Origin: a virus
Reading direction: 5' to 3' (one strand)
IMG/VR virus record: IMGVR_UViG_3300031630_000373
Coordinates: 1-21,761 of that record
DNA: 21,761 nucleotides
The translations under genes were made by a program, and so were the position numbers. Shown piece after piece: positions 2 through 18,449 of this stretch. The notes below the pieces were generated by a model that was not told the DNA's origin, searched no databases, and worked only from the letters and a program-made list of their open reading frames with translations. Each line of letters starts with the position of its first letter. Position 1 is the first letter of the stretch.

Positions 2-1672
2 GCACTTGACACTATGGAAGCTGCAGGTAAAGTTCCAATCTTAGACCCAAGTGGTACAGTGAGAGGAACCGATGCAGTTTTAAAAACAGCTGAAGTTTAC
101 ACTGATGTTACATCGGAATACAAAGATCTACTTGCTCATCTTTCTGGTGAAGAAGGGTACAATCCAAACTTCTATTTAGATGGCTCAGGTATCTTAACCA
201 CAGGCGTAGGCCTTACAGCTGAGTATGTTGCTGACCCCTCACCACTTAGGGCTATGACAGAAAAGACCAATGAGGCTAAGAGTCGTGTACCTAAATACGC
301 AAGACTACACCCTCAGGTTCAGCTTGCTCTTGTTGACTCTGCTTATCGTGGTGACTTGACTAACACCAATGAGGACACTGGAGTGGTTACCTCTCAGAAA
401 TGGGTTGATCACGTAAACAACGGTGACTTTCGTAAGGCTGCTGTTGAACATATTAATCATAATGAATACAACAAAGCTAAGGGCATTAGTGGTAAAAACA
501 GAGGTCTTATCCCAAGGTTTGATTGGAGAGCTGCAGCTTTAAAAAGATCAGCAGAACCCCAGACTATACAAAAGATGCAAGATCGTAGTAAGTCAATCTA
601 TGATCAGAGAGAAGACGCTGCAATGCTTAATGGTATGGGTAGTGGAATTACTCCTGATAAGGTTCCAGAGTCAAACATCTTTAGTGATACTTTTGATTCA
701 GTTACAGATTCTGTAGAAGGATTTGTGGACAATTTGCTAGCTACTCGTAAATTTCCAGAACAAAAAGTACCACCAAAAACAACACAAGATATTCCAGTAC
801 CCGAACAAGGGACTACTGTACCTAACGCGGAGAATGAAATGGCAACACAAGCACAGGTTAAAGCTTTCATAAAGAAACGAAATGAAACACAAACACTACC
901 TGAAGGTGGTAGGGTTGACACTCCCTTGCGGAACCAACCAGCACCTACCTCAAAGTACGGTGTAATTGTAGGCAGAGAGCCTGTAGATACTGTTGGTGAA
1001 TACATAGGCCCCAACACTGTTATAGACCCTGCACTAATGCAACAAGTAGCACAAAATAGAATGCAGCAAAGTCAGCTTTATAACATACCTGTACCTACAA
1101 TTGACAACGACATACCTAGTGTTGCTAATGGTGGTGTATTCCCATTCCCTGCGGTAATCCCACAAGGAACTGTAGATCCGGGTTTACTTGCAGCATCTAA
1201 TCAACAAAAGATGATGATGGAGCAAGCTCGAATGCAACAAAATCAGCTTAACATGATGAACACACAAGGGGCTGTAGATCCGGGTTTAATTGCAGCAGCA
1301 GCTGGACAACAGTTATCTATGATGCAGCAAGCAGCTAAAGCTTCTGAAAGGGAGCCAGCTGCTATAGCTCAAGATCAAAGCAGGATGCAACAAAGTCAGC
1401 TTAACTTAGTTCAAAGGGGTGGACAAGGTTATCATTATGATCAGAATGGAAGGCTAGTTGTTAACTACACAGGCCCTGTTAACCCTGCACCACCAGTAGG
1501 TACTGTTCTTTCCAGTAATGGACAGCCTGTTACTACTGCTAGTGGCTCTATGATTGGAGCACCTACACAAAACCCAGCTTCTAAAGCTCCTGCTGGTGGT
1601 AAAGGCGCTAATGCCACACCTCAGTCAGCTATTGCACAGCTTACGGGTATGAAAGAACTCGGAGGTAAGTAA
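2..1672 (+). CDS. Virion-associated lysozyme / internal virion protein (5' end probably outside window)
   Basis: The frame is already open at base 2, and the first ATG (base 14) has no ribosome binding site, so the protein probably begins upstream. Numbering from that ATG (552 codons), residues about 38-180 look like a GH24 (T4-lysozyme type) muramidase. The triad spacing E47-x8-D56-x5-T62 matches T4 lysozyme E11/D20/T26, followed by TTGVGLT and a later basic GLIPRFDWRAAALKR stretch. Such domains in virion proteins make a local hole in peptidoglycan during DNA entry. From about residue 190 the chain becomes low-complexity: Pro/Gln-rich, then Met/Gln-rich with repeated VDPGL and RMQQSQL elements (about 335-465), then Ala/Gly/Pro-rich. 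It is first in a run of four large late genes, and its TAA overlaps the next ATG (TAATG). Placement among ejection proteins suggests a virion role rather than a free endolysin, which remains the alternative. Confidence 0.75.
   Translation, partial: ALDTMEAAGKVPILDPSGTVRGTDAVLKTAEVYTDVTSEYKDLLAHLSGEEGYNPNFYLDGSGILTTGVGLTAEYVADPSPLRAMTEKTNEAKSRVPKYARLHPQVQLALVDSAYRGDLTNTNEDTGVVTSQKWVDHVNNGDFRKAAVEHINHNEYNKAKGISGKNRGLIPRFDWRAAALKRSAEPQTIQKMQDRSKSIYDQREDAAMLNGMGSGITPDKVPESNIFSDTFDSVTDSVEGFVDNLLATRKFPEQKVPPKTTQDIPVPEQGTTVPNAENEMATQAQVKAFIKKRNETQTLPEGGRVDTPLRNQPAPTSKYGVIVGREPVDTVGEYIGPNTVIDPALMQQVAQNRMQQSQLYNIPVPTIDNDIPSVANGGVFPFPAVIPQGTVDPGLLAASNQQKMMMEQARMQQNQLNMMNTQGAVDPGLIAAAAGQQLSMMQQAAKASEREPAAIAQDQSRMQQSQLNLVQRGGQGYHYDQNGRLVVNYTGPVNPAPPVGTVLSSNGQPVTTASGSMIGAPTQNPASKAPAGGKGANATPQSAIAQLTGMKELGGK
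1019..1402 (+). repeat. Imperfect in-frame repeats encoding VDPGL and RMQQ(S/N)QL units
   Basis: Inside the lysozyme-domain gene, RMQQ(S/N)QL is encoded three times, at 1058-1078, 1229-1249 and 1382-1402. VDPGL is encoded twice, at 1172-1186 and 1274-1288, 102 bp apart, with the 15 bases identical. A related IDPALMQQ lies just before the first RMQQ unit. The spacing between RMQQ units is 171 and 153 bp, both multiples of three, so the frame is kept. The pattern suggests duplication of a Q/M-rich linker or interaction segment. Confidence 0.7.
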
Positions 1673-3831
1673 TGGCTGTTGATAGGAGTATGCCTAGATT
1701 TTCAGGCACTAACATACCTAGGCCTGTTCCTGATCCAAATCAGGGCAAGCTTAACTTTGATGGTAGGGGTCGGAAACCAAACCTAGCACCTAAACCTGTT
1801 CCACCAGTTCAACCAGTTCCAACTCAACAAGCATTAGACTTAGACAACACTGCTAAACCAAAAAATACTATACCTTCTGTAGATAAGAATGGTAACCCAA
1901 GGACTACTTTTCCAAAGGCTGCTGTAGATGATATGGGTAACAAGGTTAAACCAACTGATTATAAAAATCTGGCTAAGTTTGGTAAAGCTGCATGGAAAGC
2001 TACTAAGATTCCTAGGGCATTAACGATTCCGGGTCTTGGTGCTATGGTATTAGAAGAGGCATTGTTTCCTACAGTATATGACTCAACTGAAACTAAAGAT
2101 GCTCTTGCTGAGGAACAAGCAGGTTTTGATGAAGAAAGTATAAAAGCTTTAACTAAGGCTCAAGACAGAGTTAACTTACTAACAGATATAAACGCTGCAC
2201 CTAAGTTACTTAACGAAGCTAAGTTAGAGTTGTCTCAACTTAAAGGTTCTACAGATCCACAACAATCTATTACCGAATGGGAAAACGATGTTAAGTCAGA
2301 GTTGGCAAACAACCAAGCTATTATTGACGCACACACAAGGAACTTAAGCTTTGACCCTGATGCTCTTAGGTCTGCACTTAAACCTGCATTAGAGCAAAGG
2401 GATGCTCTTGAATCTAAGCTTGCTGATGCGTCTTCTTGGCGTAAGAGTATTGATGCAGAATCTGCAGTTAACAAAGACCCAGACGCTGTATCTGTTATGG
2501 AAATGGCTCAAGGTATGGACCCAAGTACACTACTACCTCAGCTTGGTTCTTTAGATAAAAATACAATTAAAAAAGAAACTGATAGTGTATTAGATAGGTT
2601 TATTGACGGATCAATTACTACTGTTAATCAAGCTATGTCACTTGCTGGTAAAGGACTTGGTTCATTGTTTAGCGACCCAGCTATTCAGAAAGCACTTGTG
2701 TACTACATGGGTGCTCGTCTTATGGGTTACTCTGGTAGTGGTTCAGGTATGGCTGCTGGTGAAGTTCTTCTTAAAAGCTGGGAAGATCAAGCTGCTGCTG
2801 ATGTTTTAACAACTAAGGCACAAAACAAACTCGCTGAAGATGCAGCTGTAGATCATACTAAGTCTGTTCAATTCTTTGATAAAACTACAAAGAAGATTAT
2901 CTCAGGTTACTCATCTAAAGATGGTAAGGCTTTCTATCAGGTTACAGACAAGGGGCTTAACAAAGATAAGAACGGTAATCCTATTGCTATAAACCCAGCG
3001 TCATCTGGACTTGTTACTTATAAATCAAACACTCATAAAACTTATGATGAGATTAATCAAGGTATCTTGGACTCTACTAATAAGCAGACCAATTCCTTTA
3101 TTAAAACTCTTAATGATAATCCAGATTATGATGAGAAAGATTTGGCAGCTCTTAACCAGACTTTTGGTAACGGACGTGCAGCCAGAGATGTGCTTGAAAT
3201 TGTTACTAGGGAAATGCAAGAAGCAGGTGTTGACTATGACAATGCTGCATTTTCGGCTATGTTCCAAAACATGTTAACGACTACAATGGAGAAACAAGCT
3301 GATGGTTTACGTAAAGGTGACTATGGCGAAGAGACTGCAAGCATGGTTGGTGAGTGGCGAGAAATGCAACTCAAGAGTAGCTTAACAGGTGAAGGTAATA
3401 TAGCTAACTTTGTATATGGAAAAGCTACGAAATGGAGTGGCGATGGTGTTGCCGAATATGAAGAAGGTTTTGACGCTAGTGGTCATGCTAAGGGTATGCT
3501 TGAAGAGAAGATAAACTCTCAAAAGAATTGGTGGGTTAAAGCTGCTATTGCAAATGGAGCTGATCCAATCTTAGCTAACGAAAAGATAACCACTACTAGA
3601 GTTGTTCAGGAGTTTGGACGTTTGTTCCAAGATACTGTAATGCGAGATCCAACTGCACGTGTGTACTGGTCAGATCAATCTGGTGACAGAACTAACGCAT
3701 TCATGGAGTGGATGCAGAGCAATGACACAGGTAATATTAACCATGAACATCAATACCTAGGACTTAATTCCCCTGAAGTTAGGAGTCTTTCACTTGATAT
3801 TGATTTTAATAAACCTTTTAAGATGAAGTAA
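1672..3831 (+). CDS. Probable internal virion (ejection) protein, 719 aa, coiled-coil
   Basis: No family is recognised with certainty. The start is firm: GGAGG lies 6 nt before the ATG, and the ATG overlaps the upstream stop by one base. Residues 1-70 are rich in Pro, Asn and Lys with PxPVPP-type repeats. Residues about 95-130 hold a basic amphipathic stretch ending in a short hydrophobic segment (TIPGLGAMVLEEALF). Residues about 135-270 are Lys/Glu/Leu/Ala-rich and look like coiled coil. A Gly/Ser/Met-rich, weakly hydrophobic segment (about 340-370) follows, then a polar alpha-helical C-terminal half. Length and position between a lysozyme-domain protein and a very large protein resemble the internal-core block of T7-like phages (gp14-gp15-gp16). 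The gp15-like role is inferred from size and context only, not from residues. Confidence 0.55.
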   Translation: MAVDRSMPRFSGTNIPRPVPDPNQGKLNFDGRGRKPNLAPKPVPPVQPVPTQQALDLDNTAKPKNTIPSVDKNGNPRTTFPKAAVDDMGNKVKPTDYKNLAKFGKAAWKATKIPRALTIPGLGAMVLEEALFPTVYDSTETKDALAEEQAGFDEESIKALTKAQDRVNLLTDINAAPKLLNEAKLELSQLKGSTDPQQSITEWENDVKSELANNQAIIDAHTRNLSFDPDALRSALKPALEQRDALESKLADASSWRKSIDAESAVNKDPDAVSVMEMAQGMDPSTLLPQLGSLDKNTIKKETDSVLDRFIDGSITTVNQAMSLAGKGLGSLFSDPAIQKALVYYMGARLMGYSGSGSGMAAGEVLLKSWEDQAAADVLTTKAQNKLAEDAAVDHTKSVQFFDKTTKKIISGYSSKDGKAFYQVTDKGLNKDKNGNPIAINPASSGLVTYKSNTHKTYDEINQGILDSTNKQTNSFIKTLNDNPDYDEKDLAALNQTFGNGRAARDVLEIVTREMQEAGVDYDNAAFSAMFQNMLTTTMEKQADGLRKGDYGEETASMVGEWREMQLKSSLTGEGNIANFVYGKATKWSGDGVAEYEEGFDASGHAKGMLEEKINSQKNWWVKAAIANGADPILANEKITTTRVVQEFGRLFQDTVMRDPTARVYWSDQSGDRTNAFMEWMQSNDTGNINHEHQYLGLNSPEVRSLSLDIDFNKPFKMK

Positions 3832-3843
3832 TAGGAGAATACT

Positions 3844-6800
3844 ATGGGAGAGGGTCTTGTTTTAGATCTAGGTGATTTACTCACACAAGAAAAAGAGGCT
3901 ACACAAGGCCCCCAAGAAAGCTCATTAGCTATTAAAGGGTCCGATTGGGCCTTTATTGATGGTGATACTATATTTAATTCAGTAACAGGTAAGTCAATAA
4001 GACTAGATGGAATTGACACCAGAGAAACTGCTAAGTTTATAAAAGAAAAGCCATACTCAGAGTCTGAGATTGGTGCAGATTCTGCTGCAGCTTACATAGC
4101 TGGTCTTGCAAATGAATATGGTTTTAACAGAGAAGTTTATTCAGGTGAGAAAGGTTACTATGATCGTGATCTTGGTGACTTGTATAATGAAGATGGTGAG
4201 TCTTTTGTACAAACTCTAATAAAATCTGGTGTAGCTTCTCCATCAAGATTTTCTGGTGGAGATGACGTAGGTAATGTTCTTGCAAGTGCTTTTGCTGAGA
4301 AGAGTAGAAACTCTGATAAAGTTCTAGGTACTGCCAGTGACCTGTCTTCTTTTGAGCAAGCCAGACAAGCTATCTATGAGGTTGAGACAGACCCCTATGG
4401 TGGTATGGCAGTTCAGAAGCTAATGGCCTTTGACGCTGCTGAGTACGCACGTAACCCTAACTTCTACATGGGCATTAAAACTGTTAACGCTGGTGCAGAT
4501 TACGAAGGTAAGTCTAGAACTCCTTTTGGTACTGGCTTTGACATTGGATTTGCTAACTTGTATAAAGGTTTAAATACTTTTGGTCAAGCTCTTAGTGATC
4601 GTATAGGTGCTGAAGAGACTGAGGCATCCTTTGCAGCAGACGCAATTAAGAATCAGAAGTATATAAATGCTCAACCACTTCTAAACATGAATGTAACTCA
4701 AATGGATTGGACTGAGTTTGATGAAGTATCTTCTGGACTCAGGGGTATGCTTGGTTCATCTCTACCATTCATGGGTGCAACCTTAGTTGGTATGGCTGCT
4801 ATGCCTGTAACTGCTGGTGCTTCTGCTGCACTACCTATTTCTGTTTACACAGGTATGGTATTAGATACTATGGAAGGTGACATAGCTGACAAGAATCTTG
4901 GTGTTGCTATTGTAGCTGGAACTGCTATGACTTTCTTAGACAGACTAGGACTTAAGGGTCTTGTCAGTCCTAAGATGATGCTTACCAACGAAGGTCGTAA
5001 GGAAGCGATCGGTCATATTGCTAGAGTTAAAGGTATTTCTACGGAAGAAGCATCAAACCTCTTACTGTCTATGAGTAAACGAGAGTTGCTCTCAGAGATT
5101 GGTAACGCTAAAGAGTTTGCAGCTAATCAAATACAGAAAGGTCACTTGTTTAGGGAAAGTGTTAAGCGACTATCAAGGGGAACTGCACAAGAGGGTGTGA
5201 CAGAAGCAATGCAAGAACTCACAGAGTACACTGCTGCTGTCATTGGCTCTGAGAAACAATGGAACTACGATGAAATAGAAAATCGTATGATCAATGCTGT
5301 TGTAGCAGGTGGTATTATGGGTGCTGGATTCACAGCTCCGGGCACTGCTTTCCAAGTTGCTGATTGGCATGCTGCTGCTGACATTGATAGTGATGTTGAT
5401 AATAGATTTGACAATCAAGTACATAGTAATATAGTTAAACAACAAGAAGATTCAAGGGGGTATATTCAAACAGTTGATTCCATCACAGCCACTAACTCTG
5501 CGGAAGAGAAAGTGTTTCAAGAAGGAATGGAAAACCAAAGGTTTGATAAAGCTGAGGCTCAAGAGTTAGGTAAATCTTGGAACTCTGATCAGGACTTGTC
5601 TAACCCACGAAGTGTGGACGATTGGGCTGAGATGCATGACAGGCCTAACACTAGTCTTGCTTGGATTAAATCTTTTGCAAAGAACCCTAAGGTTGCTTTA
5701 CGTGGGACAATGGATAATGCTATTCAGAAACTTGATGGTGTATCCACTACTGCTGTTAAAATGGTAGACATGATTGGTTCTTACAGGAACCGTGTGTTTC
5801 CCGGAAGGAACATGGTAATGTCTCAACAACTTAAAGTAGCTGAGTACGACAGTATGCTTTCTCCTCAGGAAGAAATTGAAGCATCCTTTAAAACTCCTAG
5901 GGGTTTAAGCTCTGCTAGTCGGTCTGACTTTGTAAGTAAGTTAATGTATAAATACAATGAAGAACTTCTTAAACCTGCAAGAGAATCTGGAAAACCTGTT
6001 AATTGGAGTAAAGCTTCAGACGAGCTTGTGTCCAACAAGCAAGCGATACTTAAGTACGACAAGGAACTTTTAACAAGATCTAATGCAATGCTTAGGGATA
6101 ACAACATTGCTATTGAAGATGGTAACACAGTCTCTAACAATCAAGATCCAATAGAGGTTCTTCAGGATTGGTCATACAGACATAAGAATCTATTGACAGA
6201 GTATATTGCTAACCATAAGGTTGAGTTTATAAACACCTTAATGTCTTCTTATCAGCTTGACTATAACACTGCTATGGATTTAACTGACTCCATTATAAAC
6301 GATGAAACAGTTAATACTATTGGTGATGCGTTTGATGTAACTAAGCATGGACTTAATCCTTCTTATAACAAGCAACGTAAAATGAACATCTCTGATCGAC
6401 CTGAGTTTGCTAAGTTCTTAGAGCAGAACATATTTAAAAACATGGGTGATGCTTCACGAAGTGCTGCAAGATTTCAGGCTCATCGTAAGTTTTTAGGTAA
6501 GGATTCGGTGTACCTTAATCGTATGCTTAATGATACCTACATGGAGATTCGTGAAGCTAAGGGTGAGCAAGCTGCAGTTAAACACACTTCAGAACTTGCA
6601 CATGATATTCGTAATGCTTTGAATGCTGAATCAGGTAACTACAAAAGGATAGAGAATCAAAACTTAAAGCAAGCTCAGAAATACTTAACAGTTGTAACTA
6701 TGCTTCAGTCTTTATCTAATGCTGCTTTCTCTTCTATACCAGAAGTTGGTATGATCTTTAACGGTGTTCCTCGGGAAGTTATGGTTAAGAACACAGCTAC

Positions 6801-7932
6801 TTACGGTTATCTATTTGGTAATGCTGTTGGCTCTTGGATTAGAAACTTGGGTGTTGTAGCTAGGGTTGCAAAGCCCCGTGATACTCTTGAAACTATTATT
6901 GAAAAGAAACTAGCAGAGTATCGTTCTAAGGGTGACACTGACCCTAGGTTTGTGTACTACACAGATATGAAACAAATGCTACGTAGTACTGGATTTATGT
7001 CTCAGGAAACTGGTGCAGCTACAACTACAGGTGTTCAAGAAACTAACCAGTTAACTAAGGGGATGGCTGACGCTTTCTTCAAAGCTAACTTCTTACACGA
7101 CCAACAAGACATGCATCGTATGATGCGTCTATCACTCTTTAATGATTTTCTTATAGGTAAGATAGATCTTATTGATAGGTATGAAGGTCAGACTGACACA
7201 GTTGGTGTTGCTGAAGCTAAGAAAATGTTGAGAGACTTAGGGATACCCCTCAGTTCTTTACAACCTTTATCACATAAGATGAAGCGTGGTGAAACACTCA
7301 CTGATACTGAAGCAGCTATCTACAAAGATGTGTTTCTTAATGGAGCTGCTAACTTTGTTAACCAAGCTATACCTATGCCTAACGCATTGAACAGGCCACT
7401 GATCTACAGTGACCCACACTTTGCAATGTTAACACAGTTTAATGGTTTTACTTCAACGTTCCAAGCTAACCAGATACCGATGATGTGGGATCAAGTTAAG
7501 CGAGGAGGTCCAAGTTCTAAGGGATTAACTTACGGAACCTTTGCATCAGCTAGCACTATGCTTCTTCTTGCATTTGCATCTCAAGGAATCAAAGATGAAC
7601 TTAAGTATGGAGAATCTTCACCGTACCTTTCAGACCCACAGAAAATACAACGAGCTATATACTCAAGCGGATTACTAGGAACTATGGAGCGTGTGATCGG
7701 GAGTGACTTCCTGTTTCCCTTGTATCCTGAAAGTTCTTATGGTGCTTCAGAGTATGTGTGGGATCATGTTGCAGGTGAAGCCCCTGCTGCTGGTACAGTT
7801 GAGCGTACTTATGGTATTATTGAAGGTCTGATAACATCAGATGATGCGCAATTCAAAAGAAACTTATACGGAAGTATACCTATCTTTGCTCCTTACAAAA
7901 ACAGAATGATAAACTGGAATACTGATGATTAA
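3844..7932 (+). CDS. Very large internal virion protein with N-terminal staphylococcal-nuclease (SNase) domain
   Basis: This is a 1362-residue protein with AGGAG 6 nt before the ATG. Residues about 33-140 match the thermonuclease fold: IDGDT (D39, D41), RLDGID-T-R-E (R53, D58, T59, E61), YYDRDLGDLY (R108) and a FVQTLIKSGVA helix. These correspond to staphylococcal nuclease D19, D21, R35, D40, T41, E43 and R87, so all calcium-binding and catalytic positions appear intact. Membrane-like Ala/Gly/Met-rich stretches lie at about residues 298-372 and 484-505, and another near 1226-1245. The rest is polar and helical, and the last 200 residues have the look of the C-terminal region of large phage polyvalent or ejection proteins. 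It follows a lysozyme-domain gene and a coiled-coil gene, so the likely role is an ejected, membrane-crossing protein. The nuclease is strongly supported; ejection into the host is inference. Confidence 0.75.
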   Translation: MGEGLVLDLGDLLTQEKEATQGPQESSLAIKGSDWAFIDGDTIFNSVTGKSIRLDGIDTRETAKFIKEKPYSESEIGADSAAAYIAGLANEYGFNREVYSGEKGYYDRDLGDLYNEDGESFVQTLIKSGVASPSRFSGGDDVGNVLASAFAEKSRNSDKVLGTASDLSSFEQARQAIYEVETDPYGGMAVQKLMAFDAAEYARNPNFYMGIKTVNAGADYEGKSRTPFGTGFDIGFANLYKGLNTFGQALSDRIGAEETEASFAADAIKNQKYINAQPLLNMNVTQMDWTEFDEVSSGLRGMLGSSLPFMGATLVGMAAMPVTAGASAALPISVYTGMVLDTMEGDIADKNLGVAIVAGTAMTFLDRLGLKGLVSPKMMLTNEGRKEAIGHIARVKGISTEEASNLLLSMSKRELLSEIGNAKEFAANQIQKGHLFRESVKRLSRGTAQEGVTEAMQELTEYTAAVIGSEKQWNYDEIENRMINAVVAGGIMGAGFTAPGTAFQVADWHAAADIDSDVDNRFDNQVHSNIVKQQEDSRGYIQTVDSITATNSAEEKVFQEGMENQRFDKAEAQELGKSWNSDQDLSNPRSVDDWAEMHDRPNTSLAWIKSFAKNPKVALRGTMDNAIQKLDGVSTTAVKMVDMIGSYRNRVFPGRNMVMSQQLKVAEYDSMLSPQEEIEASFKTPRGLSSASRSDFVSKLMYKYNEELLKPARESGKPVNWSKASDELVSNKQAILKYDKELLTRSNAMLRDNNIAIEDGNTVSNNQDPIEVLQDWSYRHKNLLTEYIANHKVEFINTLMSSYQLDYNTAMDLTDSIINDETVNTIGDAFDVTKHGLNPSYNKQRKMNISDRPEFAKFLEQNIFKNMGDASRSAARFQAHRKFLGKDSVYLNRMLNDTYMEIREAKGEQAAVKHTSELAHDIRNALNAESGNYKRIENQNLKQAQKYLTVVTMLQSLSNAAFSSIPEVGMIFNGVPREVMVKNTATYGYLFGNAVGSWIRNLGVVARVAKPRDTLETIIEKKLAEYRSKGDTDPRFVYYTDMKQMLRSTGFMSQETGAATTTGVQETNQLTKGMADAFFKANFLHDQQDMHRMMRLSLFNDFLIGKIDLIDRYEGQTDTVGVAEAKKMLRDLGIPLSSLQPLSHKMKRGETLTDTEAAIYKDVFLNGAANFVNQAIPMPNALNRPLIYSDPHFAMLTQFNGFTSTFQANQIPMMWDQVKRGGPSSKGLTYGTFASASTMLLLAFASQGIKDELKYGESSPYLSDPQKIQRAIYSSGLLGTMERVIGSDFLFPLYPESSYGASEYVWDHVAGEAPAAGTVERTYGIIEGLITSDDAQFKRNLYGSIPIFAPYKNRMINWNTDD

Positions 7933-7964
7933 TAATATACAAGAAGTACTAGGAGGTCTAGCTA

Positions 7965-10900
7965 ATGGCTAAGTTTAATGCAGGTAATGCAGGGCAAGTA
8001 AAACGTCTTGAAGCATCTAGGGCTATGGATTCTAATGGCATACAAGATGCCATCGCAGATAAAATTCAAGTAGGTTTAACCCAAGATAGTGTGTTTCCAA
8101 CGGAAGAAGGTCAGTACGATAATGCGGTTCTACCTGCTGCACCTGTTGGAGTTAATGATGGGAAGCAAGAAATGCTTCCTGTTAATAACCCAGAACAGAT
8201 AGCTGCACTTGAGTTACAGCAACAACAAAGAGCTAGGTCTAGTTCTATTCAGCAGTTAGCTGACACAGAAGTCTTATCTAATTGGGACAAGAGTAGTATT
8301 GCTGGTATCGTAGGTGAGGCTAACAAGCCTAGGTTAATCCATGCTCTTACTAACCTTAGTAAAACTGATTCAGTTAAGATACCAGTGGATACAGGTTTGG
8401 AAGGTTCAGCTGAGAAAAGGAATTATGTTGCACAAAACATGATGAACTTTAAAGCACCTTCTGTGAGGGTAGCTGAAGATCCTGATGCACCTAAAGAGAA
8501 GATGGTTGATGCCGCAAGGACTAGGCCATTGACTGCAGCTAATCTTTTCTCTCATCTTGGAATGATACAAGAGACTAGTCCAGATGATGTTCGTATGTTT
8601 GAGGTTACATCTGATGCACAAGTCTTAGGGTTTGTTGTTATGGAGCATGAGTACATGCGTCATATGCAAGAGAGAAATATTATATCTCCTGAGATGATTG
8701 ATAATTTTACTGATGATGAAATCAATCAACTAACTGGATTAAGTTCTCAAGATACAGAGTCTGACATATCTGTTGGTAAGCTTGGAAATATGTATCATGA
8801 ACAGTTAATGATGTATCAGCAGGTGGCTCAAGGTGGTAAGGATATTATCCCTGATAAACATCTTGACCCTGCTAATCAATTAACTAAAGAAGCTTATGAA
8901 CAGTTAGGTCTTTGGGTTAAGCAGCAGTACAACCTAGGTAACCCTGCTAACACTAAGTTAATAGATGTTGGTACTAATGGTAACACTCGTTATGATTATG
9001 TACTTACACCTACTGGTGTTCTTGCTATTGAGAACGCTAGGAAAGATGCTATAGAGCCTGATGTACGCATTAGAACTCAGATCATCAATGACCCTAAGTC
9101 ATTCCCAGCTTATCAAAAAGATAAATCAGACACTAATAAGAACTTTAAATTACCATCTGACAAGAAGCGAAGACTGCAACCTGAAGTTGAAGCAATGTCA
9201 AACACATCAGCTGTTAAACATATCATAACACCTAATCGTTTAAAGTCAGGTTTATTGATAGCTTTGCAAGCTTTTAAGTATGCTAGCCAAACATTAAGCA
9301 ATGATTTAGTTGGTGGCTCTGAGATTCAAGTAGACGGTCAAACAGTTGGTATAAATGGTAGGGTTGTAGTTGAATCATGGCAAGGTAACTCTCTTGGCAT
9401 TGGTCAGAAGATGGCAGACAAGATCAACAACACTGCTGAGAACTTGTTATTAAAAGCTAAAGCACTTACCAAAGAAATAGAATCAGACCGTATGATGAAT
9501 CGACCTGTTGACTATGATAAGCAAAATCAGATCAGAGTTCTTCTTGATTTCCATAAGACTGCCCAGACAAACGCTTGGCGTAAAGCTAGGTATAACCAAG
9601 AAGCTACTAAGGCTTTGGCTATGGTTCAAGATGTTGTCGAGGTCTATGGTCTTCCTATTGGATTCCCTACTTTCCTTCAGTCAGGAACATCAAGAATAAG
9701 CTATGCCACTCAGGTTATGAATGTTCAAAACAACAAGTTTGCTAGGCAACTGTTTGGAAGTGGTACTAAGTACGAGGTTAAACCTAATACTAATACTAAT
9801 AAAGAACAAGCTATGCTTATAACTTGGGCAGGTCACTTCTTTACAGATGGTGCTTTTGTACCAGAGAAGATGCTTATTAACATGAGAGAACGTATCAACT
9901 CAAGCCCACCTGATCCTAAGCTTATGGCAATAGCTTCAGTTGGAAAGAAGCTTAAGGAAACTATGGACAGTTATAACACAGACTTACCTGTGGACTCTGT
10001 TCTTAAAATGGAAATAGTAAACGGTGAAGTTCAAGGTGTAGGTGCTGCAATCAACGCACCACGTCCTAAATTTAGTTCAGATGATGATGTTAAAAGGTTC
10101 TTAACCGAAGCAGCAAAGCACCCCAATGAGGTTGTTAATTTAATAGAGGAAGCCATTGAGCTTTCTAATTATATGGATGCGGTTAAGAGTAATGGAACTA
10201 TTATGTCACAGATGAGACCCATTGAAGTTGATGGTATCATGAATGGTATTGCAAGTATGTCTGCTCAACTTGGAATCATAGATGTTATGTACCGAGTTGG
10301 TGTTCTTCGTGAACATCCTGAAAAAGTTATTGCAGATTACCAAGGGCTTGAGGGTAACCTACGTGACCTTATGGTTAACAACATGAGGGAATCTATCAGC
10401 GATATAACTGTTAACCCTGAGCTTATGAGTAAATGGGGCATTGACGAGTCTAATCACACTGAGATAGTAAACTTACTTGAGTTAGCTATACTTAATAAAG
10501 ATGAGTTCCTTAAGCCACCTATTATGACTTTTGCTTATGGACAGGCTATTGAGCGTATGTTGGGTGGAGTTATGAACGCAATAAGTACTGACGAGAACCT
10601 TAGGGCTGCGGCTTTAATTAGTTCTTTTGGTACTGCAGGTACAGGTAAGATCTTACATAAGATACTTTCTAGGGGTTTAACAGAAACTCTTTCACCTGAG
10701 ATTGTTGCTTTTGCAGAAGCTCTTAAAGATATGACTCAGGTTGGTATGCTATCTAATGAACCTATTCGTTTTGTAAAAGCTACTGGCACTACAACTTCAA
10801 GTAATTCTTTAGCTATGCAAGATACTGGTGATAAAGTTAGATCCACTATACAAATGGAATACTCTGACCCAGTTAAAGCAGGTAGAAGGTTTGGTGACCC

Positions 10901-11753
10901 TAAGTCAGACAACCCCTCTACTCAGTTAGATGAGAAGGGTAAGCCTTACGAGAAAGCTATACGTGCAGAACTACCAATGACAATAAAGAAGCTAACTGCT
11001 TTAGGTCGTACAGCACAAGGTGGTTTCTCTATGAGGCAGGGTATACTAGCTCAAGCTATCATAAGTAATGATGGCTCTGTGTTTTCTAAGCTTATGTCTG
11101 GACCTATGTATAAGGCTCTTCAGAGAGAGGCAGGATCTCAAGTACCTTATGTTTCATTAATATATGATGCATTCATTGGAGACTTGGGTTCTTTCATACC
11201 ACTCCTTAAGCTATCTAATCAGACTTGGGTTAATGTTAACCTTAAGTACGATCTTATCAAGTCTCTTGCTGATGGTGCTGCTGAATCACATGCGCGTGGT
11301 AAGGCTAGGATCAATGCTCTTGCTGCGAAAGACCCAGAAGGTCTTGTTGAAGATAGAGAACATGCTGAGTATGTTGTTGGCCTAGCGGCAGAGCTTGTTA
11401 AGGAAGAGAAAGGTGGTCTCGTATACTACAGAAGTTCTGACTCAAAGAGTTTAGCTACTCTTAATAAGTTACTCACTGACCTTGATGCTCTGTTTGATAA
11501 TAGAACTCAGAACACATCGTTAAGTTCTTCTAAACTTAGGTCTTTAAATGACAGGAGTCACATGCTAACTAACAGAGAACTCGCTGATCTTTTTCAGAAG
11601 TTTACACCACGAACTATGGGTAAGATTGCACGTATCAGGGCGATTGGTAATGAAGCTAAGAAAGGACGAACCACTATCCTTAACACCTTAGGTTCTAAAC
11701 CAATCATCCATGAGTTTGCAGTTGATGGTCTTAAAGAGTTTAACTTTAACTGA
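7965..11753 (+). CDS. Virion-type single-subunit RNA polymerase (N4 vRNAP-like), 1262 aa
   Basis: The start is set by AGGAGG 8 nt before the ATG. The polymerase motifs of the T7/N4 RNA polymerase family occur in order. FP-x8-R with R577 fits the T/DxxGR region (T7 R425). Motif A is VDGIMNGIASMSA with D756 (T7 DGSCSGIQHFSA, D537). Motif B is KPPIMTFAYG with K850, Y858 and G859 (T7 KRSVMTLAYG, K631/Y639/G640). Motif C is LIYDAFIGDLGSF with D1068 (T7 LIHDSFGT, D812). The A-to-B spacing is 94 residues, the same as in T7. Residues 1-450 are an N-terminal extension with a Gln-rich patch near 83-90. As the last gene of the late operon, behind three ejection-type proteins, it is expected to be packaged and ejected like N4 gp50. 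N4 vRNAP is about 3500 aa, with a core of about 1100 aa, so this is a core-sized stand-alone version. Polymerase family is well supported; packaging is inferred. Confidence 0.85.
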   Translation: MAKFNAGNAGQVKRLEASRAMDSNGIQDAIADKIQVGLTQDSVFPTEEGQYDNAVLPAAPVGVNDGKQEMLPVNNPEQIAALELQQQQRARSSSIQQLADTEVLSNWDKSSIAGIVGEANKPRLIHALTNLSKTDSVKIPVDTGLEGSAEKRNYVAQNMMNFKAPSVRVAEDPDAPKEKMVDAARTRPLTAANLFSHLGMIQETSPDDVRMFEVTSDAQVLGFVVMEHEYMRHMQERNIISPEMIDNFTDDEINQLTGLSSQDTESDISVGKLGNMYHEQLMMYQQVAQGGKDIIPDKHLDPANQLTKEAYEQLGLWVKQQYNLGNPANTKLIDVGTNGNTRYDYVLTPTGVLAIENARKDAIEPDVRIRTQIINDPKSFPAYQKDKSDTNKNFKLPSDKKRRLQPEVEAMSNTSAVKHIITPNRLKSGLLIALQAFKYASQTLSNDLVGGSEIQVDGQTVGINGRVVVESWQGNSLGIGQKMADKINNTAENLLLKAKALTKEIESDRMMNRPVDYDKQNQIRVLLDFHKTAQTNAWRKARYNQEATKALAMVQDVVEVYGLPIGFPTFLQSGTSRISYATQVMNVQNNKFARQLFGSGTKYEVKPNTNTNKEQAMLITWAGHFFTDGAFVPEKMLINMRERINSSPPDPKLMAIASVGKKLKETMDSYNTDLPVDSVLKMEIVNGEVQGVGAAINAPRPKFSSDDDVKRFLTEAAKHPNEVVNLIEEAIELSNYMDAVKSNGTIMSQMRPIEVDGIMNGIASMSAQLGIIDVMYRVGVLREHPEKVIADYQGLEGNLRDLMVNNMRESISDITVNPELMSKWGIDESNHTEIVNLLELAILNKDEFLKPPIMTFAYGQAIERMLGGVMNAISTDENLRAAALISSFGTAGTGKILHKILSRGLTETLSPEIVAFAEALKDMTQVGMLSNEPIRFVKATGTTTSSNSLAMQDTGDKVRSTIQMEYSDPVKAGRRFGDPKSDNPSTQLDEKGKPYEKAIRAELPMTIKKLTALGRTAQGGFSMRQGILAQAIISNDGSVFSKLMSGPMYKALQREAGSQVPYVSLIYDAFIGDLGSFIPLLKLSNQTWVNVNLKYDLIKSLADGAAESHARGKARINALAAKDPEGLVEDREHAEYVVGLAAELVKEEKGGLVYYRSSDSKSLATLNKLLTDLDALFDNRTQNTSLSSSKLRSLNDRSHMLTNRELADLFQKFTPRTMGKIARIRAIGNEAKKGRTTILNTLGSKPIIHEFAVDGLKEFNFN

Positions 11754-11776
11754 TAACAATAAATAATAATAAAAAA

Positions 11777-11809
11777 GCCCTCAAGGTTCCGTTAAGGAAC
11801 CCAAAGGGC
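11777..11809 (-). terminator. Rho-independent terminator for the leftward (replication) operon
   Basis: Arms GCCCT (11777-11781) and AGGGC (11805-11809) flank a CAA/CAA internal loop, and an inner stem GGTTCC/GGAACC (11785-11790 with 11796-11801) closes a GTTAA loop. Read leftwards, the hairpin runs into the complement of 11761-11776, a T-rich tail that includes six consecutive T. It lies about 50 bp past the last minus-strand gene. Confidence 0.75.
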
Positions 11810-11812
11810 ATT

Positions 11813-11850
11813 ACCCTCAGGTATACATTACGTATACTTGGGGGTTATTT
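11813..11850 (+). terminator. Rho-independent terminator for the rightward (late) operon
   Basis: Positions 11813-11826 pair with 11832-11845 as a 14-bp stem containing two G-U pairs, around the 5-nt loop ATTAC. The T-rich tract TATTTTATTTATATT follows at 11846-11860. It sits 60 bp after the end of the polymerase gene, on the strand and side expected to stop late transcription before it invades the replication genes. Confidence 0.8.
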
Positions 11851-12630: not shown

Positions 12631-14805
12631 TTAACAAAAGAAGTAATCAGAAGATATGATCTCAGATATATCTAAGGATCCTAACTCTGGTTGTTTAAGT
12701 TCATAACCCTCTCGGGTCTCTAACAACATCTGCTCTATGGCAGTAAAGAAGTTAGTGCTATTGTACATCATGGCAAACTGCCACTTGGTGTGGTCAATTA
12801 ATTTATTCACATCACATGCATGAGTTGAAAAGGAATCATGTATAGCTCCGAAGTCTCCAGAGAAACTCTGAATAACTTTAGCCATGTGTGCTGCATCCAT
12901 TGAGTGAATAAAGTTAGGTGAGCATCCAGACGCAAACGATCTCCTACACGGCAACAAGTCACCATTGGAAGTGATGTAAGGTATCTTGATGCTGTGACCT
13001 ATTTGACCAAGGCCACGTATGGTACTGCGTACAGTTATATTCTTCTGACGCCACACTTCGTACAACACTGGGAATCCTGAGGGAGTTGTCCAACGTGTAC
13101 ATGTCTCACCTGTTGATAAGATATGATCAGTCATCTTCTGTATAAACTTCATGGTCTTTAAGGGACCTACGCAGGTGTCGTTGATTGCAAGTATAAGTTG
13201 TTTTGACAGAGGGGTACAGTCATCTTCTGTGATATTGTACTTCTTATCATAACCTTCAACCTTACAGTCGTAGTACATGTTTGCTGCAATCTTTTTCTGA
13301 CCAGCAGAGTAAGCCCTAGTCATAGAGCCACGCTTTGCTATGCCTTTCCTTATAGCCTTCATTGGTATGTTACGTTCTGCAAACCACTCAGGCATCCTGT
13401 CTATCAATCGCTTAGCTACTTGTACATAAAAGTCTTTTTGTATCTCACTTGGTACTAAGGATACTAGCTCACCAGCTTCCTTGTCCTTGGATATAGCCGC
13501 TAGGTGTTGCCACCCATTGTTACTACCATCAACCGGGATAGGTGTACGACTCATGTGTACTTTATTGTTTAGCACAGAATGATTATATCCAGCTACATCT
13601 AAGCAACAAGCAAGAAAGCTAACTGGTTTTTCTGCCTCTGTCCTGAAGCTTTGTCCATCCGCTAAGAGGTTTATCCAAGTCAGGTTGTTTAACGTCCACA
13701 ACTCCCTGTCCTTTAGCGTCATCTTGTCTACTGATATTGTGGATAATCCTTCGTCTTGAAGATAGGTTCTGTAATCCGCTGTTATCCATTCTGGTAGTTC
13801 CTCTAATTCATATGATTGATTGTAAGAACAAGCTGTGTGTATGCACAGCCACCTGTAACCTTCAGTATCCATAGCTTTTGCATAGGCAAACTCAAACAAT
13901 CCCTTGGATACATCAGACCCTTGGAAGTTTAAGAATGGTTCAGTGTAGTAAACACGCCCACGATAATCACACTCGACCATTTGATAGAAGTCACGTAGAC
14001 CTATGGCATGTACCTTAGATATAACAAACTTCATCTCTATAGCTTTTGACTTAGCTTTTATAGACTGATCTTCAAGATCTATGAACAGACCTAGGTTAGT
14101 CTCTAAGGCTTTAGCCACTGTACTGTTAAGCCTCCACGGTGTTTGTTGCAGCTTGTTAAGGGCAGTAATAAAAGGTGCTCCTATAAGCTGCTTAAAGTCC
14201 TCCTCTGAACTCATACGTTTTATGTAAGGCCTCTTGGTAAACTCATTACGCAAGGACATAATGTCTTTTGGTGGTGTAAAGGACGTACCTATAAGTGTAC
14301 TCTTTATGTACTCAGGGGGTAGGTCTCCAAGCTCTGCCCATGTACTTAGCAACTTGATAATGTAAGGTGCTCGGAACCCTTTGTACTCCCTTTCGATATG
14401 TATATAACCTAGTTGTAGAAAAGCTTCTAGGTATAAGTCACCCACTGCTAAAATCTCTTGATGGTTAGTGTTGAGTACCCCTAAAGAAGATAGCACCTGT
14501 AAGCCTATCACAGACGATGTGACGGTTAGTTTGAAGGGGTTAGCCGATGACCTTCTGGACTTTTGATAAGCTGCCACAGCACCTGCTACGGCCCTTACAG
14601 TTAGCTTCTCGTAGGTATATCCGTAGGGTATCATTGAAGAGATTAATCTGGCCCCTTCTGGGGGCCTCCCACGGAAGGTATTACCCTCACATCTTTCTTT
14701 TATGTATGATGTTATACGTTCTACACCAGCAGTAGACTTCTCTTGATCACCCAGTGTACTCGAGGAAGTCCTCTTGTCCTTTGAGTCTGTTAGTTCTGGT
14801 ATCAT
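12631..14805 (-). CDS. T7-type DNA-directed RNA polymerase
   Basis: Single-subunit phage RNA polymerase. Numbered from the ATG at 14805 (724 aa): DYRGRVYY (D280, R284; T7 D421/R425), motif A VDGSNNGWQHLAA (D426), motif B AKRGSMTRAYS (K491, Y499), motif C AIHDSFSTHA (D657), and a C-terminus SDYFFC matching the T7 FAFA foot. T7 RNAP is 883 aa; the shortfall is spread over the N-terminal domain and the A-B interval (65 against 94 residues). The T7 R627 position is Lys, with Arg one residue earlier, and the T7 G640 position is Ser. The start is uncertain: an ATG at 14889 would overlap the helicase gene by 143 bp, the ATG at 14805 overlaps by 59 bp, and neither has a strong ribosome site. It would transcribe middle or late genes from phage promoters, none of which I could identify. 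Confidence 0.92.
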   Translation of the reverse strand: MIPELTDSKDKRTSSSTLGDQEKSTAGVERITSYIKERCEGNTFRGRPPEGARLISSMIPYGYTYEKLTVRAVAGAVAAYQKSRRSSANPFKLTVTSSVIGLQVLSSLGVLNTNHQEILAVGDLYLEAFLQLGYIHIEREYKGFRAPYIIKLLSTWAELGDLPPEYIKSTLIGTSFTPPKDIMSLRNEFTKRPYIKRMSSEEDFKQLIGAPFITALNKLQQTPWRLNSTVAKALETNLGLFIDLEDQSIKAKSKAIEMKFVISKVHAIGLRDFYQMVECDYRGRVYYTEPFLNFQGSDVSKGLFEFAYAKAMDTEGYRWLCIHTACSYNQSYELEELPEWITADYRTYLQDEGLSTISVDKMTLKDRELWTLNNLTWINLLADGQSFRTEAEKPVSFLACCLDVAGYNHSVLNNKVHMSRTPIPVDGSNNGWQHLAAISKDKEAGELVSLVPSEIQKDFYVQVAKRLIDRMPEWFAERNIPMKAIRKGIAKRGSMTRAYSAGQKKIAANMYYDCKVEGYDKKYNITEDDCTPLSKQLILAINDTCVGPLKTMKFIQKMTDHILSTGETCTRWTTPSGFPVLYEVWRQKNITVRSTIRGLGQIGHSIKIPYITSNGDLLPCRRSFASGCSPNFIHSMDAAHMAKVIQSFSGDFGAIHDSFSTHACDVNKLIDHTKWQFAMMYNSTNFFTAIEQMLLETREGYELKQPELGSLDISEIISSDYFFC

Positions 14806-16375
14806 AGTATGCTGATCCGCAGTCTCCAGTTCGTCCTGTGAATCGTGACTTAAGTACTCGGAGTTTAATTGTGTTTCTTTCATCTTCATCTTCTGCCACT
14901 AAGTTACGAGAGAATGTAATTATATCAAAGCTAATCTGTTTAATCGAACCTGAACCCTTGATATCATCAATAGATGACAGGTGTCCTTCTTCAAAAGATT
15001 TACCTTGTGATTTCCTGAGGTGACTGATAAGACCTAGCCATACGTTATGTTTCTTGACTATCTTAAGTAGGTCAGACATGACGGAGTCTATAGCTTCGTT
15101 ACCTGTCTTTCCGTCAGCTCCTTCAGAAACTGCAATGGTGATATGATCAAGGATGATATACTGGCACCCAAGCAAGCATAGGTTTTCAATTTGATCAATG
15201 AGACTAGAATCAGACACAGCTCCGTTGTGGTCGAGCAGGATGAGCCTTTCATTACCAAATACTCTTTCAAATGCAGCACGTTCTTGCTCAACAGTTGGGT
15301 CTGAAGGTGTAAACATCTTGATAAACTTCTCCGCAGAATCTCCAATGCTTTCTTCAAGAGATACAAGGCCAATGCTTTCATCTGTATTATCCTCCAGTTC
15401 TAGTATAATTTCTTTAATCATTGTTGATTTACCTGACCCTGTGCCAGATGTGAACAATACAATCTCACCCTTACGCATACCATCTAGCTTTGCATTAAGA
15501 CCTTCAAGACACTTAGGGTACGGCACAGACTCCACAGATTTACGTTCTACGTATGCTTCCCAGATAGCTTCACCACGTACAATAGCTGCTGGTGTGTAGC
15601 TTCGTGCACTGAACACAGCACTTATAATCTCAGTTGGGTTAGCCACCAGTGCATCACATGGGTCATTGGCAGACAGAGATGCGACCTTAGTCTTATCCCA
15701 ACCAATTATTTTAGCTGCTTCTGCTACTGCTTTATCTCCAGCATCATCTTGATCAAACATTAAGATGACTTCCTTAAATGATCGTAACCAATCTCGGTTA
15801 GCCACAAGTATCTTCATGTTAGATGAGGATGGTAGAGAAACTACTGGGTATGTCTTCTTGTATTTAGTGAGCATAGCTTGCTGAACTGCAATAGCATCTA
15901 GCTCACCCTCAGTTATGATCACCTTGAAACCACCGGGCTGGAACTTAGACTGACCAAACAGTTCAAGCTTAGCATTCTTTAGGTCACCTACAACACGGAA
16001 CTCCTTAGGGAGTGTGCGCTTCTTGTACGCAACTATCTTACCCTTCACTGTGTATGGGTAGTAGTGTGCATTTATTGTACCATTAGAGTCATAAGATACT
16101 TTCATATCGTACTCGTCACATGCAGTCTTAGTTAGACCACGCTCACGTACACCTGCACTGTCATAGTTTTGTATATCTTGAAGTGAATCGCCACTCATAT
16201 CGTACTCTCGTTGTTTAGTTGGGTTAAACTTTGACACTATTGTGTCATCATATTGATCTAAGAATGCTGGCTTGTTACATGCAAAGCATTTACCTCTACC
16301 ATTAGACCACAGTGCTACTGCATCTGATGATCCGCAATGGTTACATGGGTAGTGTTTAGTGAATGAGTCACTCAT
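14747..16375 (-). CDS. T7 gp4-like primase-helicase
   Basis: A 542-residue bifunctional replication protein of T7 gp4 type (566 aa). The zinc-binding domain has C11, C14, C30 and C33 (CNHCGSSD and CFAC). The TOPRIM primase core has ITEGELDA (E156) and MFDQDDAG (D208, D210). The RecA-like helicase has Walker A SGTGSGKST (K316) and Walker B YIILDH (D410). A GTG at 16384 is in frame, but it lies inside the AGGTGG ribosome site of the ATG at 16375, so I choose the ATG. That ATG overlaps the TGA of a small upstream frame (TGATG). It would unwind DNA ahead of the polymerase and make primers. It lies upstream of the RNA polymerase gene, whose start runs into its 3' end. Confidence 0.95.
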   Translation of the reverse strand: MSDSFTKHYPCNHCGSSDAVALWSNGRGKCFACNKPAFLDQYDDTIVSKFNPTKQREYDMSGDSLQDIQNYDSAGVRERGLTKTACDEYDMKVSYDSNGTINAHYYPYTVKGKIVAYKKRTLPKEFRVVGDLKNAKLELFGQSKFQPGGFKVIITEGELDAIAVQQAMLTKYKKTYPVVSLPSSSNMKILVANRDWLRSFKEVILMFDQDDAGDKAVAEAAKIIGWDKTKVASLSANDPCDALVANPTEIISAVFSARSYTPAAIVRGEAIWEAYVERKSVESVPYPKCLEGLNAKLDGMRKGEIVLFTSGTGSGKSTMIKEIILELEDNTDESIGLVSLEESIGDSAEKFIKMFTPSDPTVEQERAAFERVFGNERLILLDHNGAVSDSSLIDQIENLCLLGCQYIILDHITIAVSEGADGKTGNEAIDSVMSDLLKIVKKHNVWLGLISHLRKSQGKSFEEGHLSSIDDIKGSGSIKQISFDIITFSRNLVAEDEDERNTIKLRVLKSRFTGRTGDCGSAYYDTRTNRLKGQEDFLEYTG

Positions 16376-17217: not shown

Positions 17218-17992
17218 CTGCAAAGACCTCTTCAATAGTTAACCTACGAAACCCATCCCAATTCCTGCGCATGTACAGTAAGTTAAAGCAGGTCTCAAGC
17301 TTAGGTTTCCAATCACGTGGATTGTGGTCACGCCATGCGTTAGCTACAGTCTCAAGCATATCTTTAGTAGCGACACCCTGTAAGATCTTCTCGGCTTTCT
17401 TAGGGCCTATGCCCTTAAGTCCATGAATGTTATCTGTACTGTCACCTGTTAGCATTTGTATACACATTTTATAATGACCTTGGTCAGCGTCAATAAAGTA
17501 TTGTGTCTTCTTGTTGAAGTTGTAATGCCAACCGGGGACCATGTCAATGTCCTTGTCGATATGTGCTATAACGTAATGCTCACCAGCTTCATAAGCCTCT
17601 TGCGCCCAGATAGATACTATATCATCTGCCTCACAGTTGTCAGACTTAAAGCATCCAGTTTCCCAAGCGTACTCTGTAACTGCGTTACGTCTTTCGACTA
17701 CCTTAGGATCTATCTCTGTCTTACTTCGGTTACCTTTGTAGTCTTCAGAGATACCGTACCTGAAGTTACCCTTACCTTTTACAGCAACATAACCTTTGAT
17801 ACTACCTGTGTCACGCATGACTGCATCAAGTGCTTTGTCAAAGTAACTCTTTGCTTGTGTGATTGAATCTGTTGTAACTGCTATACGGAATATGATTGAG
17901 TCAGCGTCTATAAAACACTTGTCGAACTCCATCTCTTCTGTCATACAGCTTTTGTTAAACATTTCGTATACTGCATCGTTATTATTGAACAT
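17210..17992 (-). CDS. T7 gp6-like 5'-3' exonuclease (FEN/PIN-type)
   Basis: A 260-residue flap/5'-exonuclease family protein. Acidic metal-binding residues are visible in FIDADSIIF (D29, D31), CEADDIVSIWA (E121, D123, D124), DKDIDMVPG (D146, D148) and LTGDSTDNIHG (D184, D187). A helix-hairpin-helix GLKGIGPKKAEKIL follows (191-204), plus a basic YKGNRS element (85-90) for DNA. T7 gp6 is about 300 aa. It should remove RNA primers and degrade host DNA to feed nucleotides. The ATG at 17992 overlaps the HNH gene's stop by 11 nt, with AAGAG upstream. Internal ATGs at codons 17 and 21 could be the ancestral start if the HNH gene was inserted later. Confidence 0.9.
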   Translation of the reverse strand: MFNNNDAVYEMFNKSCMTEEMEFDKCFIDADSIIFRIAVTTDSITQAKSYFDKALDAVMRDTGSIKGYVAVKGKGNFRYGISEDYKGNRSKTEIDPKVVERRNAVTEYAWETGCFKSDNCEADDIVSIWAQEAYEAGEHYVIAHIDKDIDMVPGWHYNFNKKTQYFIDADQGHYKMCIQMLTGDSTDNIHGLKGIGPKKAEKILQGVATKDMLETVANAWRDHNPRDWKPKLETCFNLLYMRRNWDGFRRLTIEEVFADE

Positions 17993-18449
17993 ACTTATTA
18001 CTCTTTAGTAAATTGTCAGATGCTTTTAGGATCTGTAAGTTATACTCTACATGAAACCCCGATACATTTTTACCTTGTAAGGGGATTATGTGGTCTACAT
18101 GGTAAGCTCCAGGCCCATGAATATTGTTGAGCCTTGCCGCTTCTTTGTAGATTTCTTTTATAGCTTCTAAGTCAGCCCAGCTAGGCGTTCTTTGTATTTT
18201 ATTTGAGTTCCTTAATTTGTTAGTGGCATTACAAGCACCTCTGTTTCTTCGTTTCCACATCTTATTAGCTAGTCTTGTAGTCACTCGGTATGATTGGTCA
18301 TTATTTCTTCGAGCTAAGGTACGCATTACATTACATTGTCTACATATATAATTGTATTTAATGGACATATTTTCAGTCCAATTAAAACCAACAACTAATG
18401 TTTCACTACAATCTTTGCAGGTTCTTTTTCTATTAATGGATTTCTGCAT
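17982..18449 (-). CDS. HNH endonuclease, probably a free-standing homing endonuclease
   Basis: A 155-residue protein from the ATG at 18449. The N-terminus holds a zinc-ribbon-like pair, CKDC (C11, C14) and CRQC (C36, C39). A basic, Arg/Asn-rich linker (TLARRNNDQSYR, KMWKRRNRGACNATNK) follows. The C-terminal HNH core is YHVDHIIPLQG with D119 and H120, then NLQIL (N137) and a last Asn (N146) in DNLLKSNK. This is a common phage HNH type. It is wedged between DNA polymerase and exonuclease, overlapping the polymerase gene by 17 nt and the exonuclease by 11 nt. Homing endonucleases often sit beside DNA polymerase genes, so a mobile origin is likely. A longer frame to 18491 lies within the polymerase gene and is unlikely. 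Confidence 0.85.
   Translation of the reverse strand: MQKSINRKRTCKDCSETLVVGFNWTENMSIKYNYICRQCNVMRTLARRNNDQSYRVTTRLANKMWKRRNRGACNATNKLRNSNKIQRTPSWADLEAIKEIYKEAARLNNIHGPGAYHVDHIIPLQGKNVSGFHVEYNLQILKASDNLLKSNKYVQ

Follow-up and report, generated by a model that had tools for sequence, protein, structure and literature searches.

The catalytic core of the bacteriophage N4 virion RNA polymerase (vRNAP), mini-vRNAP, comprises residues 998-2103 of gp50. Enzymes of this type are described as giant multidomain chains that in nearly every case carry a fused metallopeptidase domain (PMC5512222), and their freedom from cysteine has been interpreted as suited to passage through the tail and periplasm (PMC3715699). 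Alteromonas phage R22Y is reported to encode a 2,083-aa vRNAP plus a second RNA polymerase (RNAP), with its authors comparing R22Y with a schitovirus (PMC11705849), and for Stenotrophomonas phage StenR_269, which belongs to none of the known families, a protein of 2270 aa was proposed by its authors as a vRNAP on the basis of size, helix content and lack of cysteine (PMC10747016). One survey of IMG/VR discarded vRNAP-related proteins shorter than 2,500 aa, as reported there also removing T7-like RNAPs (PMC10654107), and this filter would have removed the family described here, if it was found at all. Here we analyse a 21,761-nucleotide stretch of viral DNA (positions 1 to 21,761 of IMG/VR record IMGVR_UViG_3300031630_000373; hereafter the window) and an open reading frame (ORF) within it that encodes a stand-alone RNAP of 1262 aa. 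In this marine phage, and in many phages related to it, a small homologue of the packaged N4 RNAP is encoded as a free-standing protein, and a second, T7-like RNAP is present as well. The free-standing arrangement is what is new; no description of it was found among the titles listed by literature searches that covered few subscription papers and not the bioRxiv set.

Homology, catalytic residues and predicted fold

An initial annotation, made from the letters alone, had recognized a single-subunit RNAP in the ORF at 7965-11753, and all six motif residues named there (R577, D756, K850, Y858, G859 and D1068) are present at those positions. The gene and its motifs are as follows.

7965..11753, + strand: stand-alone virion-type RNA polymerase, very probably of the N4 branch; 1262 aa, no cysteine
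7951..7956, + strand: AGGAGG preceding the polymerase ATG, resembling a ribosome-binding site, as read from the sequence
9693..9695, + strand: R577 codon, invariant in 56/56 homologues; corresponds to N4 R424 and T7 R425 by profile alignment
10230..10232, + strand: D756 codon, motif A aspartate (DGIMNG), invariant in 56/56; corresponds to N4 D559 and T7 D537
10512..10541, + strand: motif B, K850-G859 (KPPIMTFAYG), with K, Y and G invariant in 56/56
11166..11168, + strand: D1068 codon, motif C aspartate (IYDAF), invariant in 56/56; aligns with T7 D812

Searched by itself, the window protein matched 0 Pfam families, produced a single chance-level match in PHROGs (0.26) and only an unrelated lyase among PDB sequences (E 2), and in phage records reached two vRNAPs of N4-like Vibrio phages, in the region of motifs A and B (E 0.4 and 0.9). 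Because the lone sequence gave no credible match, a family of relatives was built. Scans with the family profile and with the T7-like RNAP gave 136 and 118 confirmed stretches, respectively, of which the best 80 were kept in each case (79 and 78 loci). The resulting set holds 56 distinct homologues of 1117-1356 aa, some of them near-identical, with a median pairwise identity of 21% and with the start cut by the contig end in a few (L066 and L081 at least); four divergent rows (gp33 of phage CRP-7, L115, L114 and L095) were dropped before counting. Only 20 of the 1262 columns are invariant across the 56 homologues, and all six named residues fall among them (naive probability 7e-12). In an alignment that includes three of the four divergent rows, the arginine, both aspartates and the Tyr-Gly pair are invariant in 21/21 sequences and the lysine is kept in 19/21.

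Profile comparison connects this family to known enzymes. The 56-row profile matches 14 Schitoviridae vRNAP cores at E 2.9e-19 with R577, D756 and K850 in register, and smaller sets gave 2.5e-6 (5 window-like rows) and 8.7e-18 (18 rows). Its match to 14 T7-like RNAPs is weaker (1.2e-6) and spans motifs A to C, and the lowest E among shuffled and reversed control alignments was 0.58; the assignment to the single-subunit RNAP family is borne out. Of the 24 members of one alignment (A5), 10 hit the 'RNA polymerase' family phrog_414, the strongest at 6.2e-8, but the window's member is not one of them; an hmmsearch of PDB with A5 returned no polymerase (best 1.4), and a tblastn search of phage records with two divergent members returned nothing up to 0.1. 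The annotated motif spacings agree with the T7 and N4 sequences: A to B is 94 residues in the window protein, 94 in T7 (537-631) and 111 in N4 mini-vRNAP (559-670), and B to C is 218, between 181 in T7 (631-812) and 281 in N4 (670-951). R577 had been assigned to a T/DxxGR region. The arginine itself stands, as a predicted equivalent of N4 R424 by profile alignment, but its context, QSGTSR, is not the textbook form of that motif.

An AlphaFold2 model of residues 95-1262, built from an alignment of 24 rows (pLDDT 73.3, pTM 0.63), has the right-hand polymerase fold. With this model, Foldseek returned T7 RNAP at 1.1e-11 and N4 vRNAP at 1.3e-11, and each of the best 50 of 163 matches was a single-subunit RNAP. 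A second aligner put N4 mini-vRNAP (2po4) at the top (Z 19.7; 559 residues at an rmsd of 4.5), level with mitochondrial RNAP (Z 19.6) and T7 RNAP (Z 19.4); the structural comparison that the initial annotation had proposed therefore turned out in its favour. As the scores are tied, the fold assigns the superfamily, and placement in the N4 branch rests on profiles and a tree. In the best superpositions on the N4 and mitochondrial structures the aligned part begins near residue 370 of the window protein. The motif residues are predicted to meet in one site, since they align with catalytic residues of N4 and T7 and the polymerase domain superposes.

An unrooted tree of 26 free-standing sequences (chosen from the 56), 14 Schitoviridae vRNAPs and 14 T7-like RNAPs recovered the free-standing family as one clade (99/98) beside the Schitoviridae vRNAPs (90/84), with the T7-like rows apart (100/100). 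The earlier suggestion of a distinct lineage of core-sized, separate polymerases holds in this tree. The ORF product is almost certainly a polymerase by descent and fold, and profiles and tree make membership of the N4 virion-RNAP branch very probable.

Gene order, the second RNA polymerase and known systems

The polymerase gene is the last of four consecutive genes on the + strand, behind three ejection-type proteins as first described. The opposite strand encodes MazG, a T7-like RNAP, primase-helicase, 5'-3' exonuclease, DNA polymerase and ribonucleotide reductase (RNR), among others; the second RNAP had gone unmentioned in the initial annotation. The neighbouring features are listed here.

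2..1672, + strand: lysozyme-like protein, no cysteine; start cut by the window edge (556 aa here, 591 aa on a longer contig)
1672..3831, + strand: ejection-type protein, 719 aa, no cysteine, without a credible family match
3844..7932, + strand: ejection-type protein directly upstream of the polymerase, 1362 aa, no cysteine, with a weak SNase-like domain near the N-terminus
11754..11850, no strand: terminator-like hairpins separating two convergent operons; scan match at 11813-11845
12631..14889, - strand: second RNA polymerase, T7-like, 752 aa, 14 cysteines, Pfam RNA_pol at 9.5e-52; presumed to transcribe later genes

A protein 100% identical to the window polymerase occurs on a 51,738-bp contig (G001), on which the larger virion ORFs lie on one strand with the terminase gene first and the polymerase gene last. 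Comparison with L048 shows purifying selection on the gene (dN 0.070, dS 0.440). Across 80 surveyed loci with the polymerase gene (L003, L129 and L130-L207), the gene is complete in 62 (49 distinct) and encodes 1159-1342 aa, and neither the 62 complete ORFs nor the 56-sequence set includes a fusion to a further long segment. In 73/80 loci the polymerase gene is followed, on the opposite strand, by a T7-like RNAP; the remaining seven have a truncated polymerase gene or run out of contig within 900 bases. Because these loci, except L129, came from a scan with the vRNAP itself, the association with a T7-like RNAP is not built in. The family points to phages with two different single-chain polymerases.

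The T7-like RNAP is present as two ORFs in L129 (8359-10648) and L206 (9912-12201), for which sequencing error, an intron or a split gene are candidate causes, and as one ORF of 652 aa in L207. The L129 contig, in which a 1159-aa vRNAP adjoins the two-piece T7-like RNAP, was binned with an uncultured Dehalococcoidia metagenome-assembled genome, which may reflect mis-binning of a phage contig or may hint at the host. In L095 (12179-15151), and at the same place in L105, two ORFs that by eye resemble RNR subunits stand between the T7-like RNAP and a 1372-aa vRNAP-like gene.

Compared with N4 gp50 and other Schitoviridae vRNAPs, the window family shares the polymerase fold, catalytic residues, profile match and lack of cysteine, and as in the window, the N4 and Schitoviridae vRNAP gene sits at the end of the virion operon adjoining ejection proteins. 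Its members are free-standing, unlike the chains of 3022-3679 aa in seven measured Schitoviridae vRNAPs, and lack the N- and C-terminal thirds that N4 carries on the same chain; they depart from the giant, metallopeptidase-fused form in being short, and no Pfam domain was found in the window protein. As its later polymerase the window's phage has a single T7-like chain, where a heterodimer is described for N4 (PMC12633501). Portal phrog_1216 is common to N4 and to the two tested members of the window's group, G001 and CRP-7, but these two members share head protein phrog_1328 and terminase phrog_2 where N4 has phrog_1357 and phrog_38. By these hallmarks G001 and CRP-7 are not Schitoviridae: the portal is shared, the head protein and terminase differ and the vRNAP is not giant. 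The presence of free-standing enzymes in another, marine group shows that the polymerase module does not have to be fused to the other parts, and provides a natural minimal enzyme for studying the passage of an RNAP through a narrow tail. Likeness to T7 gp1 extends to the single-subunit fold, motifs A, B and C and the A-B spacing of 94, but T7-like RNAPs match the profile much more weakly and form a separate clade. The phages' own T7-like RNAPs are cysteine-rich and encoded in the replication arm, in contrast to the cysteine-free virion-type enzyme of the virion operon.

A probable counterpart in phage CRP-7

CRP-7 is an unclassified podovirus of Roseobacter RCA strains, cultured on FZCC0042 and FZCC0040; the RNAP reported for it is the T7-like one, and the same source calls RCA phages non-N4-like (PMC6918029). 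We note that PMC12629253 covers 29-33 kb phages of another group, that its 'CRP-7' strings are apparently 'CRP-701', and that PMC10386132 is not relevant here. CRP-7 gp33 (QBQ72826.1; 1235 aa, no cysteine) occupies the position of the window gene beside the T7-like RNAP and has alignable motif residues. Its label, 'hypothetical protein', fits the earlier remark that such a gene would easily be so called, although its membership of the family has indirect support only. Direct comparison gave no match to the window protein and E 6 with the family profile, and profile comparisons of the CRP-7 group with the family were insignificant (A1-A2 0.35; fam18-A2 0.24). The link comes through L095, with matches of 1.7e-7 to gp33 and 2.7e-4 to the family profile; its motif-like stretches read by eye as DGTQSG, KAPLMQVSYS and HDS, with Ser for Gly in motif B. 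The CRP-7 group profile matched Schitoviridae in motif C only (6.2e-4), and in an alignment that is itself uncertain, the motif B lysine is replaced by R in gp33 and L115. The structure model of this group was unusable (pLDDT 35). With L095 as intermediate, gp33 is a probable counterpart of the window polymerase. As CRP-7 is cultured, packaging could be tested there, provided that gp33 is the counterpart.

Probable packaging and early use, and alternative explanations

The best explanation overall, to which we assign a probability of roughly 0.8, is that the gene encodes a core-sized, free-standing homologue of the N4 vRNAP polymerase domain that is packaged, injected and early-acting. Operon position and the near absence of cysteine make packaging likely. 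The 56 sequences contain 1 cysteine in 69,429 residues (window protein, 0; L150, a cut fragment outside the set, has another), and each of the seven full-length Schitoviridae vRNAPs contains 0. T7-like RNAPs from 23 of the same loci contain 286 in 15,879 residues (one of the 23 is mis-framed, 5 aa). Cysteine is absent from all 3,934 aa of the four ejection-cassette proteins as encoded on the longer contig, compared with 14 residues in the T7-like RNAP and between 0 and 7 in each of 12 further late-arm proteins measured there.

In the most likely course of events, the polymerase would be made late and packed into the head with the lysozyme-like, 719-aa and 1362-aa proteins, the last with its nuclease-like domain. 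It would then pass the short tail with these three cassette proteins, ahead of or with the DNA, and, by analogy with N4 as described in PMC12633501, transcribe early genes in the cell, possibly also helping to pull the genome in. The T7-like RNAP (12631-14889), a product of the other arm, would then take over.

Several points weigh against this explanation. Low cysteine content is partly general to virion proteins in these phages (in CRP-7 the head protein has 1, and tail gp51 and the scaffold have 0), and an exonuclease of CRP-7 that is presumably non-virion also has 0, so that low cysteine alone is a weak sign of injection. Presence of the polymerase in virions is a prediction from sequence. 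In the profile alignment to vRNAPs, motif C falls in a separate, insignificant stretch (0.26), though in register. Superposition rows that also cover the N-terminal part have an rmsd >8, and the promoter-binding end of the window polymerase may consequently differ. Three left arms (G001, G003 and CRP-7) contain no clear excess of short hairpins of the N4 promoter type: perfect 6-base stems numbered 4, against 5.8 in shuffled sequence, in G001, 6 against 6.0 in G003, and 11 against 5.7 in CRP-7 (shuffle maximum 12). The full analogy is weakened in that no hairpin promoters were found, there is no giant chain and the N-terminal part superposes poorly.

The left arms scanned also contained no repeated hairpin arms, and direct repeats in two of them lacked an interpretable common element. 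Separately, the left arm of CRP-7 (L010 1443-1515) carries tandem copies of a AAAACCTTGAT-like element at 11-base spacing, with a similar stretch near 2422; this is a possible regulatory element.

An active RNAP that stays unpackaged, made late and used in the cell for late genes or replication priming while host RNAP serves early genes, would be compatible with the late-operon position and with the finding of no early hairpin promoters, packaging being itself an inference. This is unlikely, since the gene is last in a cassette of cysteine-free ejection-type proteins, the sister group is reported from virions of N4-like phages (PMC3715699; PMC12633501), and later genes could be left to the second RNAP, encoded in the replication arm. 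Much less likely is a polymerase-derived structural ejection protein that has lost activity. The vRNAP of schitovirus DEV is counted as its third ejection protein, and no clear T7 gp16 analogue is reported to have been found in DEV (PMC12633501), and the motif B substitutions in gp33, L115 and L095 point the same way, but structural selection alone would hardly keep six catalytic-site residues invariant in 56/56 sequences at such low median identity. A duplicate of the phage's own T7-like RNAP would share the superfamily, the 1.2e-6 profile match and structure scores that do not separate the branches, but is highly improbable given the much stronger vRNAP match (2.9e-19) and a tree that splits off the T7-like group at 100/100.

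Within the preferred reading of a packaged, early-acting enzyme, we tentatively raise the possibility that the free-standing form is the older, and the 3500-residue protein of N4 a later fusion of ejection protein, polymerase and C-terminal part. These marine podoviruses might use two single-chain polymerases in turn, first the injected enzyme, for early genes, and then the T7-like one, with little or no need for host RNAP.

The 1362-aa protein and an overlapping ORF

The SNase-like domain of the 1362-aa protein (PF00565 at 0.002, below the family cut-off; residues about 38-135) reads IRLDGIDTRE ... YDRDLGDL. By eye, the Arg-Glu-Arg of what we take to be the nuclease site seems kept. CRP-7 gp34 has the same SNase-like part (35%). 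In a comparison of the 1362-aa family (17 rows) with seven full-length Schitoviridae vRNAPs, residues 397-500 aligned with N4 332-443 at E 0.0012 and a probability of 19, where a reversed control gave 0.13 and a shuffled one 0.64, suggesting a resemblance to part of the N4 vRNAP N-terminal region. As this similarity is suggestive only, it was given no weight for either a split or a fusion. Elsewhere in the window, an ORF at 17982-18491 that by eye resembles an HNH endonuclease overlaps the 3' end of the DNA polymerase gene.

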